Shown piece by piece: positions 49,612-60,014 of a DNA stretch of 64,000 nucleotides. The DNA lies in the NCBI RefSeq assembly GCF_000314735.2, contig NZ_KB375270.1, positions 3,348,001 through 3,412,000 on the forward strand, written 5' to 3'. Within the stretch, counting starts at the first letter, position 1; each line of letters begins with the position of its first letter. The position numbers were made by a program, and so were the translations under genes. The notes beneath the pieces are model-generated. The model was not told where the DNA came from. It made no database searches and worked only from the letters and a program-made list of their open reading frames with translations. The DNA comes from Afipia felis ATCC 53690 (lineage in GTDB: Bacteria; Pseudomonadota; Alphaproteobacteria; Rhizobiales; Xanthobacteraceae).

Positions 49612-49688
49612 GCGCCCGTAGCTCAGCTGGATAGAGCACCAGACTACGAATCTGGGGGTCAGAGGTTCGAATCCTTTCGGGCGCGCCA
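49612..49688 (+). tRNA. tRNA-Arg (anticodon ACG)
   Basis: A 77-nt cloverleaf. Acceptor GCGCCCG pairs with CGGGCGC, followed by discriminator G and an encoded CCA. D arm GCTCAGCTGGATAGAGC; anticodon stem CCAGA/TCTGG with loop CTACGAA (anticodon ACG at 49646-49648); T arm AGAGG-TTCGAAT-CCTTT. The A in the wobble position is normally deaminated to inosine in this tRNA. Its 3' half is repeated at 59692. Confidence 0.96.
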
Positions 49689-52904: not shown

Positions 52905-53582
52905 ATGGATATTTTCGATCGGCTGAAGGCGGCGGCGATTGCGGACTGGCAAAGCTATATCGGCCATGACTTCGTCCTTCGCCTCGGAACGGGTACGTTG
53001 CCGCAGGCAGCATTTCGCGCCTACCTTGTGCAGGACTATTTGTTCCTGGTTCAATTTGCCCGAGCCTATGCGCTTGCCACCTACAAGAGTCGTACTGTTG
53101 CAGACATGCGGATAGCGCAGGCAGGGCTTTCCGCCATTCTCGACGAGATGAACCTTCATATACGGCTGTGCGGTCGTTGGGGTCTTTCGCCAAAGGAGAT
53201 CGAGGCGACCCCGGAACATCAGGCCACTATCGCCTATACGCGTTTCGTGTTGGATTGCGGTGCGGCCGGGGATCTGCTCGATCTGCATGTTGCGCTTGCT
53301 CCATGCGTTATCGGCTACGCTGAGATCGGTCGTAATCTGATGCCGAACCGCATCGAGGACCTCGGCAATCATCCTTACCGTGAATGGATTAGTGAATACG
53401 CAGGCGAGTCGTATCAGGACGTTGCTGTCGTGGCGCGACGTCATCTGGATGATCTCGCGGCGAGGGCGATGACCGAACAGCGCGTTGCAGAGCTTGCTGC
53501 TCTGTTTGGAAAAGCGTCAAGGCTTGAGGCGGAGTTCTGGCAGATGGGTCTCGATGTTGCTGAGCGGCATGCCACTACTTAG
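52905..53582 (+). CDS. tenA: TenA-family protein (thiaminase II / aminopyrimidine aminohydrolase-like)
   Basis: An all-helical 225-residue protein. Core motifs: LVQDYLFLVQFARAYALATY with the substrate-binding aspartate, the catalytic cysteine in ALAPCVIGYAEIG, and the late glutamate in LEAEFWQMGLDVAE. Classic TenA hydrolyses aminopyrimidines in thiamin salvage, but the wider family includes proteins with other or unknown substrates. There are no thiamin genes and no recognisable TPP riboswitch upstream. Its place beside an oxidoreductase/cupin cluster suggests it may act on another C-N substrate. Confidence 0.85.
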   Translation: MDIFDRLKAAAIADWQSYIGHDFVLRLGTGTLPQAAFRAYLVQDYLFLVQFARAYALATYKSRTVADMRIAQAGLSAILDEMNLHIRLCGRWGLSPKEIEATPEHQATIAYTRFVLDCGAAGDLLDLHVALAPCVIGYAEIGRNLMPNRIEDLGNHPYREWISEYAGESYQDVAVVARRHLDDLAARAMTEQRVAELAALFGKASRLEAEFWQMGLDVAERHATT

Positions 53583-53753: not shown

Positions 53754-54779
53754 CTACAGTTCGATCTCAACCTTGCTCATGGGAATGTTTGAGCACATCA
53801 GCTGGCAGTGCTCCCGTGTCTTTGCCGACGTGACTCGGATTTTCATCAACTCGCCCACGACGACCTTGCGTGCGCACATGCCGCACATACCGGTGCGGCA
53901 GTTGAAGGGCGCCTTAATTCCGAGGCTTTCGGCGAATTCCAGCAACGTGCCTTGTTCAGGGGTCCAGATTGCCTCGATACCTGATGTCGTGAACGTCACC
54001 GATTGCGGATGGAGCGGCGGTAGCTCTTTTTCCTCCGCAATTTCGGCTGGCGGAGCGAGTGTTGCACCCATCTCCTGCTTGTAGATCCTACGGCATACGA
54101 CGCGGCTTTCGCGCAGGGCCGCCTCAGTCGCTGCAACAAACTCTCGTGGGCCGCAAATGTAGGCGTCGAACTCCTCGGAGGGGAGGAATTCCACGTCTTG
54201 GTCCAGATGCATCTCGCCGCCGAGATCGTATTCCTTGCCTGGCCGGTCGACCTGACGCGGATTGCTGAACCAGACTTTCCAGACGCTGTTCGGCAGATCA
54301 GCTTTCAGCGACCCCAGTTTGCCCTTCAGGGCGAATGTCGAACTGTTGAACGTGCTGTGCAGGAACACGACATGATGCCGTGATGCTCTCACGGCCAGTT
54401 CTTCTGCCATCGCGGTAACGGCGGCCTCGCCGATGTCCTTGCTGAAGATGACGACAGGTCGGTCGAGTTCAGCGGTGAGATGGAATGAACCCTGCGGCCC
54501 AGTCGCGTGGATGAGGCCGCCTTTTTCTGCCTGATCGGTCCAGAAGAACGCTGCCCGCGCAGCATCCTTCACGTCTGTATGAATGACCGTGATACGATAA
54601 ATCTTCGGGTCGGAGGAAAAGGCTGACAGCACATAAGGGCGCTCGCCGACACCCGGAATGTCGAAGGCAAGGTGCTGTCCGGCCTGAAAACGGCTCAGTG
54701 TCTCGTCCGATGTCAGGAATACGGAGATCGTATTCGGTGTTTCATTGACCTTCCGGGCGATTTTGTACTGTCGCTGCAT
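53754..54779 (-). CDS. Flavin reductase with C-terminal plant-type 2Fe-2S ferredoxin domain
   Basis: Electron-transfer reductase of 341 residues. The FAD-binding barrel (FQAGQHLAFDIPGVGERPYVL), NAD(P) domain (HATGPQGSFHL; DAYICGPREFVAA) and C-terminal ferredoxin (FNCRTGMCGMCARKVV, last Cys in LMCSNIP) follow the order of Hmp-/vanillate-demethylase-type reductases. The canonical CRxGxCGxC motif is kept. It would pass electrons from NAD(P)H to an oxygenase, but no oxygenase subunit is next to it. A 17-bp operator (54802) lies 23 bp upstream of its start. Confidence 0.87.
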   Translation of the reverse strand: MQRQYKIARKVNETPNTISVFLTSDETLSRFQAGQHLAFDIPGVGERPYVLSAFSSDPKIYRITVIHTDVKDAARAAFFWTDQAEKGGLIHATGPQGSFHLTAELDRPVVIFSKDIGEAAVTAMAEELAVRASRHHVVFLHSTFNSSTFALKGKLGSLKADLPNSVWKVWFSNPRQVDRPGKEYDLGGEMHLDQDVEFLPSEEFDAYICGPREFVAATEAALRESRVVCRRIYKQEMGATLAPPAEIAEEKELPPLHPQSVTFTTSGIEAIWTPEQGTLLEFAESLGIKAPFNCRTGMCGMCARKVVVGELMKIRVTSAKTREHCQLMCSNIPMSKVEIEL

Positions 54780-54801
54780 GTGCCGTCCCTGAGTTCCGAA
54801 T

Positions 54802-54818
54802 GTTTCTTATCAGGAAAC
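54802..54818. promoter_or_regulatory. Operator site 1 (GTWTC-N7-GAWAC)
   Basis: GTTTCTTATCAGGAAAC, a 17-bp near-palindrome, 23 bp upstream of the reductase start and in the divergent gap to the XRE-cupin regulator. It fits the consensus GTWTCYTATYAGGAWAC with site 2. Confidence 0.65.
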
Positions 54819-54832
54819 TTGAGGAGGATCAA

Positions 54833-54877
54833 ATGATGGGTGGCTGGCAGTTTGCTATAGATGGGATTATCTGCTGA
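54833..54877 (+). pseudogene. 5' fossil of a hydantoinase A/5-oxoprolinase-like gene
   Basis: A 14-codon frame, MMGGWQFAIDGIIC then stop, with an excellent ribosome site (GAGGAGG at 54821-54827) directly after operator site 1. The first ten residues closely resemble the N-terminus of bacterial 5-oxoprolinase/hydantoinase A proteins, which typically read GWQFxIDRGGTFTD. Homology ends after Asp10, as if the rest of the gene had been deleted. The alternative is a short leader peptide. The match is from memory of the family, not a search. Confidence 0.45.
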
Positions 54878-54941
54878 AAACGGTTCCGACTACGCCGGAC
54901 TATTGATAATCAAGAGTTTCTGGCGCAATTGACGATTCGAA

Positions 54942-55565
54942 ATGACAGCTACCGACATCTTGGAAACTGGGTCTAACAGCGAGCAGGAGACTGACACGCT
55001 CGGACGCCGGATCAGGCAACTCCGAAAAGCGCGGGAGCGCACGCTGGATTCGCTGGCGCAGGAGGTCGGGCTCACCAAGGGCTATCTTTCCAAGGTCGAG
55101 ACAGGTCGCCAGACACCGCCTTTGGGGACGTTGTCGAAACTCGCCAAGGCTCTCGGTACTGACCTTGCCGGACTCGTTGAAAACGGCACCACTGATCGCA
55201 CTGAGCTTGGTTATGAAGGTGTTTCGGTGGTGCGGGCCGATGAGCGGCGCAATGTCGTACGTGGTGCGACGTCATTCGGCTACGACTATCAGTCGCTGGT
55301 GCAGAATGCCGTCGGCAAGCACATGTCGCCGTTTCTGTTCACCTTCCCCTCGCAGATCCTCAAGGAAGTGTTTTTCGAGCATGGCGGCGAGGAGATGATC
55401 TTCGTGCTCAGCGGTGTTGTAGAATTCGAAGTCGGCAGCGAAACCTTCGAGTTGATGCCGGGCGACTGCATTTATTTCGATCCTCGCCAACGGCATCGCG
55501 GGCGCGGAAAGTACGGCGAGGCCAAGGCGCTGGTTGTACTGTACGAGCCGAAAAATCGCAGCTAG
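54942..55565 (+). CDS. XRE-family regulator with C-terminal cupin sensor
   Basis: A 207-residue regulator. The N-terminal helix-turn-helix (LGRRIRQLRKARERTLDSLA, VGLTKGYLSKVETGRQTPPL) is followed by a cupin (FFEHGGEEMIFVLSGVVEFE, PGDCIYFDPRQRHRG). This architecture is common in local regulators of catabolic or redox clusters. It is divergent from the reductase. It is the obvious candidate to bind the operators at 54802, 56091, 56820 and 56873; this is inference from co-location. Confidence 0.9.
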   Translation: MTATDILETGSNSEQETDTLGRRIRQLRKARERTLDSLAQEVGLTKGYLSKVETGRQTPPLGTLSKLAKALGTDLAGLVENGTTDRTELGYEGVSVVRADERRNVVRGATSFGYDYQSLVQNAVGKHMSPFLFTFPSQILKEVFFEHGGEEMIFVLSGVVEFEVGSETFELMPGDCIYFDPRQRHRGRGKYGEAKALVVLYEPKNRS

Positions 55566-55599
55566 TTCGTCTTCCTAAAAGGACGCGGCATAGAGCACT

Positions 55600-55627
55600 A
55601 AAAAAGGGGCGCTGCGAGCAGCGCCCC
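55600..55627 (-). terminator. Rho-independent terminator of the cupin gene
   Basis: GGGGCGCTGC (55606-55615) and GCAGCGCCCC (55618-55627) form a strong stem. The plus-strand run of six A before it becomes a T-run after the hairpin for minus-strand transcripts. It ends the cupin message and is shared space with the regulator's 3' end. Confidence 0.82.
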
Positions 55628-55662
55628 GAGATCAAGGCTGGGGGAACGATAGTGGCCTTGAA

Positions 55663-56067
55663 TCAGCTCGCGAGAGCGTCTTCCTTCTCGACGCCGAACC
55701 CCGCGGTTTCACCGAATTTGTTCGGCTTGCGATAGACGGCGAGCAGGATGCAGCCTTCGTCGCTCTTGGTCTCGTGATAGGAGCCCGGGTGGCGCCAGAC
55801 GAAATTGCCGGCCCGACAAATACCGTCATGGTCGTAGAACGAGCCTTCGAGCACGTAGCTCTGCTCGAGTTCCGGATGCTGGTGGAATGGAAGCGTGGTG
55901 CCCGGCTCCCACTTCAATAGGCAGGTCAGCTCGCCACTTGCCGGATTTTCATACAGAACCTTGATCTGGATGCCTTCGAACTGGGAAGGCTTCCAGCCCA
56001 TATCAGTGACCTTCACATAGACCGAGCCGCCTGGCGTGGGTTCCTTGGTGACGAAACGCGGATCCAT
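55663..56067 (-). CDS. Small cupin-domain protein, possible dioxygenase
   Basis: A single cupin of 134 residues. The metal-ligand motif is LPFHQHPELEQSYVLEGSFY and the second motif GNFVWRHPGSYHET, giving a three-His/one-Glu-like site. It resembles the ChrR-like and 2,4'-dihydroxyacetophenone-dioxygenase-like cupins. AAGGAGG precedes the ATG at 56067. Operator site 2 lies 24 bp upstream. It could be the metal enzyme of the cluster or an accessory binding protein. Confidence 0.83.
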   Translation of the reverse strand: MDPRFVTKEPTPGGSVYVKVTDMGWKPSQFEGIQIKVLYENPASGELTCLLKWEPGTTLPFHQHPELEQSYVLEGSFYDHDGICRAGNFVWRHPGSYHETKSDEGCILLAVYRKPNKFGETAGFGVEKEDALAS

Positions 56068-56090
56068 TGGGTATCCTCCTTGTTAAATAA

Positions 56091-56107
56091 GTATCCTATT
56101 AGGATAC
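56091..56107. promoter_or_regulatory. Operator site 2, perfect palindrome
   Basis: GTATCCTATTAGGATAC: perfect 8-bp arms around a single T, in the 65-bp gap between the DJ-1 gene stop and the cupin start. It is the best-conserved copy of the cluster operator. Confidence 0.72.
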
Positions 56108-56132
56108 AAAATGACATGAGATGTCAACTCGA

Positions 56133-56780
56133 TTATGCGGCCACGGTTTTTGGTGCAGCAGCGGCCTCGGAAAACGCGCCGTCGCCGCCGCTCCATCGAT
56201 ATTCGATGATGCGCGCGGTCTCTCTCGCGACGTCTGCGCCGCGAAGTCGTGCGATCAGATGCAATGTCGTATCGATTGCCAGAGCGACGCCGCCGCCGGT
56301 CACGACCGTTCCGGAATCAACGAACCGCGCTTCTGTACCATTCACTCCGGGGTAGAGCTTTTTCATCAAAGCGAGCGGCGTCTCGACGCCGGCAGGAGCG
56401 TAACGGCGGGTGGTTGCCTCCTTGCCGTCGAGCAGGCCAGCGCCTGCAACGATAAGCGCCCCAGTGCAAACTGACGCAACGATGCCCTTGCGTGAGAACG
56501 CCCGGATGAAGCTGAGAGTCTGTTCGTCCTTGCTGACCTCCGGCCATGCGGCCCCGCCGAGAATCATCAACACATCGCCGGGAGGACAATTCGTCACGCT
56601 GTAAGGCGCGAGGATCTCAAGTCCATTGGCCAGACGGACTATACCGGCCTTGTTGGCCACCAAAGCCATCTCAATACCCGGATCGACACGCTTGGCCATT
56701 GAAAGAACGCCGAATGTTGCGCCGATGTCGATCGGTTCAACATCATCATAGGCGTGGATGATGAACGTGGTGTTTGACAT
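56133..56780 (-). CDS. DJ-1/PfpI-family protein
   Basis: Class I glutamine-amidotransferase-like protein of 215 residues. The nucleophile elbow is GIVASVCTGALIVAGAGLLD with the reactive cysteine, and DVLMILGGAAWPE carries the upstream region. It resembles the isonitrile-hydratase/ThiJ subgroup more than chaperone-type Hsp31. GAGGAGG lies upstream of the ATG at 56780, and operator site 3 is 40 bp upstream. It is probably transcribed with the cupin gene, though site 2 between them could give the cupin its own promoter. Confidence 0.87.
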   Translation of the reverse strand: MSNTTFIIHAYDDVEPIDIGATFGVLSMAKRVDPGIEMALVANKAGIVRLANGLEILAPYSVTNCPPGDVLMILGGAAWPEVSKDEQTLSFIRAFSRKGIVASVCTGALIVAGAGLLDGKEATTRRYAPAGVETPLALMKKLYPGVNGTEARFVDSGTVVTGGGVALAIDTTLHLIARLRGADVARETARIIEYRWSGGDGAFSEAAAAPKTVAA

Positions 56781-56819
56781 GCCAGATATCCTCCTCAGCA
56801 AGAAACTTCGTCAAAATAA

Positions 56820-56836
56820 GTATCGCAAAAGGAAAC
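56820..56836. promoter_or_regulatory. Operator site 3
   Basis: GTATCGCAAAAGGAAAC, 40 bp upstream of the DJ-1 gene. The outer five bases on each side fit GTWTC/GAWAC, while the centre diverges. Confidence 0.55.
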
Positions 56837-56872
56837 TTAGTTGACAACTTTTCATTCTGCAACGATGCTCAA

Positions 56873-56891
56873 GTTTCTTAAGACGGGAAAC
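56873..56891. promoter_or_regulatory. Operator site 4, looser copy
   Basis: GTTTCTTAAGACGGGAAAC: GTTTC and GAAAC arms, with spacer 9 instead of 7. It lies 32 bp upstream of the transporter start, in the divergent gap with the DJ-1 gene. Confidence 0.4.
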
Positions 56892-56923: not shown

Positions 56924-58228
56924 ATGTCGACGGCAGAGGTCCTTAATCCCGCTGTTCCCAAGGAAGGGTCCAGCATTAAACACATCGTTGCGGCGAGCGT
57001 GCTCGGCACGACGGTCGAATGGTATGATTTCCTTATCTACGGCACCGCGGCTGCGTTGGTGTTCAACAAGCTGTTCTTTCCGAATTTCGATCCGCTCGTC
57101 GGCACGCTTGCCGCGTTCGGCTCCTATGCGGTTGGCTTCGTCGCGCGTCCGCTCGGCGGCGCAATCTTCGGCCATTTCGGCGACAAGCTAGGCCGCAAGG
57201 CGATGCTCACGCTGACCATGATCATCATGGGTGCGGGCACGTTCCTGATTGGTTGTCTGCCCACCTATGATCAGGTCGGCATTCTTGCTCCGATCCTGCT
57301 GTTGATCCTGCGTATGGCGCAGGGCATCGGTATCGGCGGTGAGTGGGGTGGTGCGACCCTGATGGTCATCGAAAGCGGCGATCGCAACCGGCGCGGCTTT
57401 CTCGGCAGCCTTGTGCAGGTCGGTTTTCCACTCGGCATGGTGTGCGCGACCCTGATCTTCCTTCTCGTCTCAAAACTGCCTGATGAGCAGTTCATGAGTT
57501 GGGGCTGGCGTCTTCCGTTCTGGCTGAGTGCGATCCTCGTCGCCGTCGGGCTGTTCGTGCGCATGCGGCTCGTCGAAACGCCGAAGTTCGCGAAGGTCCA
57601 GGAGCAGGGTGAGATCTCCAACGCTCCGCTCCTCGACGTTCTCACCAAGGACTTCAAGAACTTCGTCGTCGCTGTCGGCCTCAAGATATCGGAAGTAGCG
57701 TGGGTGTATGTGCTGATCGGCTTCCTTGTCTACTACGCGACATCGCATCTTCATCTGTCGAAGACGGTTATTCTCGACGCGGTGCTTTACGCAGCGATTC
57801 TGGAACTGGTCACGCTGCCGCTGTTCGGCCTGTTGTCGGATTATGTGGGGCGCAAGCCGCTCTACATCGCAGGTACCATCCTATCGATGATTGTGGCCTT
57901 CCCGCTGTTTACGCTGGTCGCGACCAAGGACCCGACGACAATCGCGATTTCGATTGCGATCATCATGAGTATTACCCACGGTCTGATGTTCAGTCCGCAA
58001 GCTGCGTTCATTCCCGAACTGTTCGGCACGAAGGTGCGCTATAGCGGTGCCTCGCTCGGTGTGCAGGTATCGGCGGCAATCAGCGGCGGCTTCGCCCCGA
58101 TGATCGCAACGGGACTCCTTGCTTACTACGGCACCACGACGCCGATTTCCTGGTACCTCATCGCGCTCGGCGCCATCACGCTGATTGCGACACTGGTTTC
58201 GCGGGAAACTGCTTTCGAGGACCTGTAG
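56924..58228 (+). CDS. MHS-family metabolite/H+ symporter (MFS)
   Basis: Twelve-TM importer of 434 residues. MHS hallmarks: the N-terminal GTTVEWYDFLIYGTAAALVF, GGAIFGHFGDKLGRKAMLTL between TM2 and TM3, and RMAQGIGIGGEWGGATLMVI. The family takes up organic acids, shikimate, ketoglutarate, citrate or betaines. The substrate here is unknown but presumably the compound the cluster degrades. AGGGAGA precedes the ATG. It is followed by a terminator. Confidence 0.9.
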   Translation: MSTAEVLNPAVPKEGSSIKHIVAASVLGTTVEWYDFLIYGTAAALVFNKLFFPNFDPLVGTLAAFGSYAVGFVARPLGGAIFGHFGDKLGRKAMLTLTMIIMGAGTFLIGCLPTYDQVGILAPILLLILRMAQGIGIGGEWGGATLMVIESGDRNRRGFLGSLVQVGFPLGMVCATLIFLLVSKLPDEQFMSWGWRLPFWLSAILVAVGLFVRMRLVETPKFAKVQEQGEISNAPLLDVLTKDFKNFVVAVGLKISEVAWVYVLIGFLVYYATSHLHLSKTVILDAVLYAAILELVTLPLFGLLSDYVGRKPLYIAGTILSMIVAFPLFTLVATKDPTTIAISIAIIMSITHGLMFSPQAAFIPELFGTKVRYSGASLGVQVSAAISGGFAPMIATGLLAYYGTTTPISWYLIALGAITLIATLVSRETAFEDL

Positions 58229-58415: not shown

Positions 58416-59495
58416 ATGCCGCACTATAAAATCCTCATCCTCGGCGCGTCCTATGGATCGCTACTTGCCTCCAAACTTCTGTTCGGCGGCCATTCCGTCA
58501 CGTTGGTCTGCCTGCCCGCGGAGGCTGACCTCATCAACAGCGAAGGCTTCCGCGTGCGGATGCCCATCCGTGGCCGTGAGCAGCCGGTGCTGATCGATTC
58601 GCGCGAATTGCCCGGCAAGGTCTTCGCCGTGAGTGCGGCGGATGCGAATCCGGCAGATTTCGATCTGATTGGGCTTGCAATGCAGGAGCCGCAATATGGC
58701 TCGCCCGGCGTGCGCGAACTGCTTGAGCGTATCGCGAAGTCACGCGTACCCTGCATGTCGATCATGAACATGCCGCCGCTGCCCTACATCGCGCGTCTGC
58801 CGGGCATTGATGCGAGCGCGGCGAAAGCCGCATACACCGATCCGTCGGTCTGGAGTGCATTCGATCCCGGCGCGCTGACCTTGTGCAGCCCCGACCCGCA
58901 GGCGATCCGTCCGCCGGAGGAAAAGGTCAACTTCCTTCATGTCACGTTACCGACCAATTTCAAGGTCGCGCGTTTCGATAGTGAAGACAGCAACGCCATC
59001 CTGCGCCAGCTTGAGCAGGATATCGATGCGATCCGCATGGAGACACCGGAAGGTAAGACCGAAGTGCCGGTGAAGCTGCGCTTCCACGATTCGCTGTTCG
59101 TGCCGCTGGCGAAATGGCCGATGCTGCTCGCGGGCAACTATCGCTGCGTGACGGCGGGTGGCATGCGCACCGCGCAGGAGGCGGTGCACTCCGATCTGAC
59201 GGAGTCGCGCGCGGTGTATGAGTTCGTGATCGATGTTTGCATCGCGCTCGGCGCCAAACGTGAGGATCTCGTGCCGTTCGACAAATATGCCGCGGCAGCC
59301 AAAAGCCTTGCACGCCCGGCTTCGGTGGCACGGGCGCTGACCAATGGTGCGCCGAATGTCGAACGCGCTGACAAGCTCGTGCAGTTGCTGGCGCAGCAGA
59401 AGGGCATGAGTCATCCGGTGGTCGACCAGATTGTCGCGCTGGTGGACCGTCGGCTTGAAGTCAATCGGAAGAAAATGAAATCTGCGGCTGCCTGA
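58416..59495 (+). CDS. Ketopantoate-reductase-like NAD(P)-binding protein
   Basis: A 359-residue protein beginning with a Rossmann motif of the ApbA/PanE type (ILILGASYGSLLASKLLFGG), with GASYGS in place of GxGxxG. A helical C-terminal half follows. It is longer than true PanE (about 300) and I cannot identify the catalytic Lys/Glu pair with certainty, so a dehydrogenase for another 2-oxo acid or an opine-like substrate is possible. It has its own upstream gap after the MFS terminator and no operator match. A hairpin (59482-59506) overlaps the stop codon. Confidence 0.68.
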   Translation: MPHYKILILGASYGSLLASKLLFGGHSVTLVCLPAEADLINSEGFRVRMPIRGREQPVLIDSRELPGKVFAVSAADANPADFDLIGLAMQEPQYGSPGVRELLERIAKSRVPCMSIMNMPPLPYIARLPGIDASAAKAAYTDPSVWSAFDPGALTLCSPDPQAIRPPEEKVNFLHVTLPTNFKVARFDSEDSNAILRQLEQDIDAIRMETPEGKTEVPVKLRFHDSLFVPLAKWPMLLAGNYRCVTAGGMRTAQEAVHSDLTESRAVYEFVIDVCIALGAKREDLVPFDKYAAAAKSLARPASVARALTNGAPNVERADKLVQLLAQQKGMSHPVVDQIVALVDRRLEVNRKKMKSAAA

Positions 59496-60014
59496 GGCGG
59501 CCGCAGTTCCGCTCAGGTCCTCAAGGACCTTCGCTCACCTGAAGGCAGGTCAACAAGGCGCAGATCGAAACTGGAGACCGAAATGGCGTTAATCGGTTCG
59601 TCTTCGCAGCTGGCATGATTTGCTTAGTCCAAATAGCGTCTTACGGTAACAGACTTCAATAATTTCAATGATCTGGCCGAGATTACTAACCGGGGGATCA
59701 GAGGTTCGAATCCTCTCGTGCGCGCCATTTGCATTTAAAACTTGTGAAGCCGGAATGAACTCCTTCCGGCTGGCCAGGACCGCTCCTTCGGGGACGCCTT
59801 TGCCGTCATCTATCGCGTTGTCCCCCGGGGCATCACCCTCCGCTAAACGCCGACGTGGACCGCAAACACCATCGCACTTTGCCGAAAGTGCATAGCGCGG
59901 ACGACGCGACAAAGCCGAAATATATCAAGGAATAATGTTGTCGGCTCATGCTGTCGCAAGAGCGCGGGTGCAGCGACTTTCGGGTCGACAAGTGAAGGCA
60001 ATGGTGAGCTTGCA
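59496..60014. other. Intergenic region with a tRNA remnant
   Basis: 519 bp without a supportable gene. It contains the tRNA 3'-end copy at 59692-59730. A 107-codon minus-strand frame here contains HERIRTSDPPVS, the familiar false translation of a tRNA T-arm, and is not a gene. The remainder leads into the RND operon. Confidence 0.6.
59692..59730 (+). repeat. Right direct repeat: tRNA 3'-end remnant, candidate att site
   Basis: It reads as a T arm (AGAGG-TTCGAAT-CCTCT), an acceptor 3' strand (CGTGCGC), GCCA and TTT, without the 5' half of a tRNA. It aligns with 49654-49691. The perfect T stem and different acceptor strand suggest it came with the element from a related tRNA-Arg gene. Confidence 0.62.

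Follow-up and report, generated by a model that had tools for sequence, protein, structure and literature searches.

A shared operator of about 21 bp in a small gene cluster of Afipia felis, with an XRE-cupin protein as its likely binder

XRE-cupin proteins of Pseudomonas have been described as local inhibitors that act at core promoters beside genes for enzymes and transporters, with palindromic motifs where a motif could be derived (Trouillon et al., PMC7901475). In the parts of that report drawn on here, the Pseudomonas aeruginosa inhibitors of this type are ErfA, PsdR, PauR, PA0535, PA1359, PA1884, and PA4987. In Pseudomonas putida, DbuR is reported to protect a palindrome of 20 bp within which the −10 element lies (PMC12724383). 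We analyzed a 64-kb stretch of the Afipia felis ATCC 53690 genome (here, the window), in which an XRE-cupin gene lies among the genes of a reductase (RED), a small cupin (CUP), a DJ-1/PfpI protein (DJ1), a transporter (MFS), and a protein here called APB. The first-pass annotation knew of no described system with this gene set, and our literature searches of openly licensed papers found no description of it either. However, the regulatory design is already known from the Pseudomonas XRE-cupin local repressors (PMC7901475, in the parts used), and what lacks a description, within the reach of the searches, is the gene set alone. Judging from sequence, the operators shared within this cluster are very likely binding sites of the XRE-cupin protein, which would keep the cluster repressed by occupying the −10 region and would be released by a metabolite.

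Operator sites in the window and in the home genome

Three sites of the form GTWTC-N7-GAWAC had been annotated, and all three are present as exact matches (54802-54818, 56091-56107, and 56820-56836), with no other in the window. The same pattern occurs on average 0.13 times, and at most once, in 100 dinucleotide shuffles. With one mismatch it occurs at 8 places versus 3.6 expected; therefore, the signal of the 17-bp pattern sits in the exact sites. The annotated distances from site to start (23, 24, 40, and about 32 bp, the last one from a looser fourth site) are correct, since ATG codons are found at the assumed starts.

In the whole genome, the 17-bp pattern is found at 13 places versus 6 for the reversed control, so that the 17-bp form alone defines no regulon. 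Of the 10 matches outside the cluster, nine fall within open reading frames 60 codons or longer, some of which may not be genes, and one does not. Thus, of the proposal that a shared 17-bp operator defines a regulon, the shared operator stands and the length does not: because the shorter form recurs elsewhere in the genome, we describe the operator as about 21 bp, which fits better. The 21-bp form, AAGTWTCCT-N3-AGGAWACTT, was extended from letters conserved in the clusters of relatives; it was first run before the Bradyrhizobium clusters were found, when the sites of two distant loci (L043 and L059) had already been seen. In this form, operator 1 (54800-54820) lies in the reductase promoter, operator 2 (56089-56109) in the small-cupin promoter, and operator 3 (56818-56838) between the DJ-1 and transporter genes, no strand being assigned to any of the sites. 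The 21-bp site is a palindrome placed in the core promoters of neighboring genes, as in XRE-cupin repressors, with imperfect symmetry at two of the three window sites (54802 and 56820); symmetry is highest at 56091, the only site that is near symmetric.

With up to three mismatches allowed, the 21-bp consensus matches the 4.2-Mb home genome at three places, which are operators 1 to 3 with two mismatches each; because the consensus was drawn from these sites, the three matches arise by construction, and the result is the absence of others. The reversed control gave two places. A genome-wide scan for stray sites, proposed by the first-pass annotation as a check, thus yields no fit beyond the cluster, and the operators are few and local, as is characteristic of XRE-cupin local repressors.

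Conservation and distribution of the operator

The gene cluster is also present in three other genomes of the Afipia genus, in which the order of the six genes is retained, and in two Bradyrhizobium genomes, of which NP1 has all six genes and B124 has no detectable APB. The reductase was found in 4 of 101 genomes, all of the Afipia genus (E values up to 1e-40). The XRE gene was found in 6 of 323 genomes of the family (four Afipia, G917, and G957), 2 of 265 of the Bradyrhizobium genus, 3 of 385 of the class (home included), 1 of 398 of the phylum (home itself), and 3 of 11 of the family of G457. A cupin search of the 385 class genomes gave a match in 28; in the loci scanned around cupin genes (L020 to L042, about 1.5 kb per side, and the longer L043 to L048), L043 and L044 alone gave an XRE match besides home. 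So infrequent and scattered an occurrence is what horizontal movement of the cluster would be expected to produce.

An ortholog comparison, also proposed earlier, shows that 18 of 18 reductase, cupin, and DJ-1 promoters in the six species carry the operator, with one to four mismatches to the 21-bp form. Exact 17-bp matches are found at all three sites of each of the four Afipia clusters, with drift in the flanking bases. The three cores are exact in B124 as well; NP1 has an exact reductase core, a single mismatch in the cupin core, and another in the DJ-1 core. Hence core 1 is exact in all six species, and cores 2 and 3 are exact in five. This is so despite reductase proteins that are only 61% (NP1) and 52% (B124) identical to that of A. 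felis. Invariant columns make up 47 of 63 operator positions versus 68 of 270 others, with a Fisher p of 5e-13 that overstates the evidence because the six species are related.

Two further elements lie near operator 3. The remark that a half-site recurs is borne out by AAGAAACTT (56800-56808, no strand assigned), an extra half-site between operator 3 and the DJ-1 start, which is kept in five of the six species and altered in B124. The loose 19-bp copy, GTTTCTTAAGACGGGAAAC, is present near the transporter start at 56873-56891 (no strand assigned), as annotated, but as a conserved full operator it fails: it is kept in two of the three other Afipia clusters (three of four with home), the third has a degenerate version shorter by 1 bp, and neither the NP1 nor the B124 cluster has a recognizable copy. 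It would fall near the start of the transporter gene, yet it is unconserved outside close relatives and is doubtful as an operator.

Across 29 Afipia-genus genomes, the 21-bp consensus at up to three mismatches occurs at 37 places. Eleven of them have one or two mismatches, and each of these lies in the cluster of one of the four genomes that carry it. The remaining 26 have exactly three mismatches: one is a cluster site in G020, and the others fall outside clusters, with one in G007, one in G021, and 23 spread over the 25 further genomes, 24 of which (all but G025) appear by name among the genomes without a RED or XRE match. A second set comprised 19 genomes: NP1, B124, 10 Bradyrhizobium controls drawn from those that gave no XRE match, five distant genomes in which an XRE ortholog is present, and two genomes (G182 and G247) that have a close cupin but showed no XRE in the fetched stretch. 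At up to two mismatches, NP1 and B124 each have two places, all four in the cluster, and B124 has five further places at three mismatches elsewhere. The 10 controls have no place at up to two mismatches and six at three. Among the distant genomes, G457 and G957 have two places each at three mismatches, one of the two being in a cluster promoter, and allowing up to three mismatches reveals no full operator in G379, G836, or G917; G182 and G247 gave no operator match. Among the genomes searched, the operator at up to two mismatches is thus confined to cluster-bearing genomes, and within these to the cluster, where it co-occurs with the regulator gene.

Distant XRE orthologs, with about 45 to 52% identity, have DJ1, a transporter, and, except in L059, CUP as neighbors. 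The transporter is represented by a TRAP solute-binding gene in L043 and is of the MHS type in L058, L059, and L061, the last of which is on plasmid pBB1 of Cupriavidus necator N-1. In 14 promoter-side regions of seven loci, three of which represent one genus, GGAWAC half-sites number 23 versus 3.45 in shuffles, and none of 500 shuffles reaches 23. With one locus per lineage, 13 half-sites (five in L043, none in L058, one in L059, five in L061, and two in L062) stand against about 2.2. The distant clusters with XRE orthologs mostly retain full or half sites. The one with none in its promoter-side regions, L058, has SKSYLSK in the helix region of XRE versus TKGYLSK in close relatives, a single case that would fit an altered site and no more. 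In L062, the half-sites lie upstream of the cupin gene, and XRE was not detected in that stretch.

Regulator, promoter layout, and alternative explanations

The XRE-cupin protein (54942-55565, plus strand, 207 amino acids) has the domains of such a repressor, namely, Pfam HTH_31/HTH_3 at residues 20 to 77 and Cupin_2 at residues 145 to 196, and a domain scan of the genes agrees with the annotation that it is the only regulator in the cluster. Three residues of its cupin domain, H147, E151, and H185, do not vary across 30 aligned sequences and might serve to hold a metal or ligand. We propose that this protein binds the operators, probably as a dimer. Another transcription factor, encoded elsewhere, might instead bind them, the XRE-cupin protein having a different target. 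Such a factor would suit the half-sites of L062 and the promoter of the regulator gene itself, which has no recognizable operator, and the assignment of XRE as the binder is itself deduced. However, sites at up to two mismatches are found only where the XRE gene is, and the conserved cluster holds no other regulator; we therefore consider a separate factor unlikely.

At the reductase promoter (minus strand), a −35-like TTGATC (54832-54827) and a −10-like TAAGAA (54809-54804) are separated by 17 bases. The small-cupin promoter (minus strand) has TTGACA (56127-56122) and CCTAAT (56103-56098) with a spacer of 17 or 18, and the DJ-1 promoter (minus strand) has TTGTCA at 56847, a 17-base spacer, and GATACT ending at 56819. 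In all 18 reductase, cupin, and DJ-1 promoters of the six species, the −10-like box begins within the operator. Because the limits of this box search, made in the neighborhood of the operator only, were loose, and because a stricter consensus scan recovers only the DJ1 promoter and gives no excess in the region (1 versus 1.8 in shuffles), the −35 and −10 assignments rest on conservation. The operator would thus span the spacer and the −10 region of the reductase, cupin, and DJ-1 promoters, so that bound regulator would exclude RNA polymerase; the −10-like boxes inside the operators argue for repression by such a block. A conserved TTGACA just downstream of operator 3 could be the −35 element of the divergent transporter gene, which operator 3 would then also abut. 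A metabolite that enters or is made by the pathway would bind the cupin domain and release the XRE protein, and the genes for uptake and processing would be switched on together. That the protein binds the operators and activates rather than represses appears very improbable: although NceR, an activating member of the XRE family, is cited in the DbuR paper (PMC12724383, in the part used), the operators overlap the spacer and −10 region, which is a position for repression, and the Pseudomonas XRE-cupin proteins covered in the consulted parts of PMC7901475 were inhibitors.

Finally, although a mechanical scan flags 56107-56091 as terminator-like, the repeats can hardly be chance palindromes or hairpins acting in RNA, since only one site is near symmetric, what is conserved is the sequence of the half-sites and their distance from the −35 box, and chance is countered by the shuffle counts, the specificity in the home genome, and the confinement to the cluster in Afipia and Bradyrhizobium genomes.

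Cluster genes, a possible pathway, and comparison with described systems

The reductase (53754-54779, minus strand, 341 amino acids) has NAD-binding and 2Fe-2S domains by domain match, and an oxygenase partner is absent among the cluster genes. Beside it is a TenA/thiaminase-like gene (52905-53582). This gene was considered as a partner of the reductase and was left out of the cluster, because no TenA match was found in the stretches fetched around the three other Afipia and two Bradyrhizobium clusters. The small cupin (55663-56067, minus strand, 134 amino acids) consists of a ChrR-type cupin domain alone (PF12973). Its residues H62, H64, E68, and H98, which we take to be a metal-type cupin set, are kept in all 38 aligned sequences. 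It shares the cupin-like domain PF12973 with ChrR anti-sigma factors, but a role as such a factor is rejected by its score against the ChrR model TIGR02451 (37.4 bits versus a cut-off of 124.5). Between the converging XRE and cupin genes there is a GC-rich terminator-like hairpin (55606-55627) with stem letters kept in the other three Afipia clusters.

The DJ-1/PfpI protein (56133-56780, minus strand, 215 amino acids) has isocyanide hydratase (3non) as its best PDB match, at a modest 77 bits. In this alignment its DJ-1/PfpI domain agrees with InhA at two residues, a cysteine (in the segment SVCTG) and an aspartate, presumably the catalytic ones. The transporter (56924-58228, plus strand, 434 amino acids) is assigned to the MHS type by family model, scoring 439 bits against the metabolite/H+ symporter model, just under the cut-off of 443. 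APB (58416-59495, plus strand, 359 amino acids) is only a candidate member of the regulon and matches no Pfam or NCBIfam model at 1e-3. It has at least 8000 homologs below 1e-10, some named ketopantoate reductase by their sources, and would represent a large family without a model in Pfam or NCBIfam. Beyond APB, positions 59690-59730 look by eye like a tRNA gene 3′ end and may be a remnant of one; the only tRNA gene that ARAGORN gives is tRNA-Arg at 49612-49688.

One pathway of uptake and processing would be the natural reading of these genes. More specifically, and tentatively, the core (XRE-cupin repressor, isocyanide hydratase-like DJ-1 protein, small metal-type cupin, and importer, of the MHS type in most of the clusters found and of the TRAP type in a single genus) may form an uncharacterized, horizontally spread pathway of uptake and processing. 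Its substrate might be a small compound resembling an isocyanide, a nitrile, or a diketone, and the inducer either this compound or a product. These three compound classes are guesses. In G917, an amidase and an FAD-binding oxidoreductase are encoded close to the DJ1-XRE-MFS-CUP group (L058, 2431-5876) and may hint at the pathway. A PHB-depolymerase-family esterase gene is found within several kilobases of the cupin gene on the Cupriavidus plasmid (L061, 2734-3924) and on a Variovorax plasmid (L062, 11312-12379). With a defined operator, a likely regulator, and a recurring gene core, the substrate becomes testable: with a reporter placed behind one of the promoters and the regulator supplied alongside, a screen for inducers would double as a search for the substrate.

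Several described systems resemble parts of this locus. Among the genes that a table in PMC8629993 gives as raised in nitrifying Alcaligenes faecalis is one for a cyclohexyl-isocyanide hydratase, and Alcaligenes encodes a cupin 77% identical to CUP; because of these two points, a Dirammox (dnf) reading was considered. It was rejected: the hydroxylamine oxidase DnfA (annotated as an aminobenzoate oxygenase) and the MocR-like DnfR, as characterized in the part of the literature used, are absent among the nine window genes scanned, and the regulator here is an XRE-cupin protein. The likeness of DJ1 to the isocyanide (isonitrile) hydratase InhA lies in the best PDB match and the two aligned residues; the score is modest, and a hydratase activity of DJ1 is putative.

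The closest comparison is with the P. aeruginosa XRE-cupin inhibitors as described in the consulted parts of PMC7901475, which share with this locus an XRE domain joined to a cupin, palindromes in core promoters, few sites, neighboring enzyme and transporter genes, and a patchy spread. The gene set is different here, the likeness is one of published description rather than of operator letters, and binding and repression are predictions in our case. Like DbuR in the part of PMC12724383 used, the XRE-cupin protein is encoded divergently and is a predicted repressor with a palindrome of similar size over the −10 element, whereas the DbuR palindrome is AATTCTCATATATTAGAATT and serves one operon of a D-amino-acid oxidase, a Rid2 protein, and a transporter. 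By sequence, the Pseudomonas XRE-cupin model would extend to Afipia, to Bradyrhizobium, and in part to a Cupriavidus plasmid.
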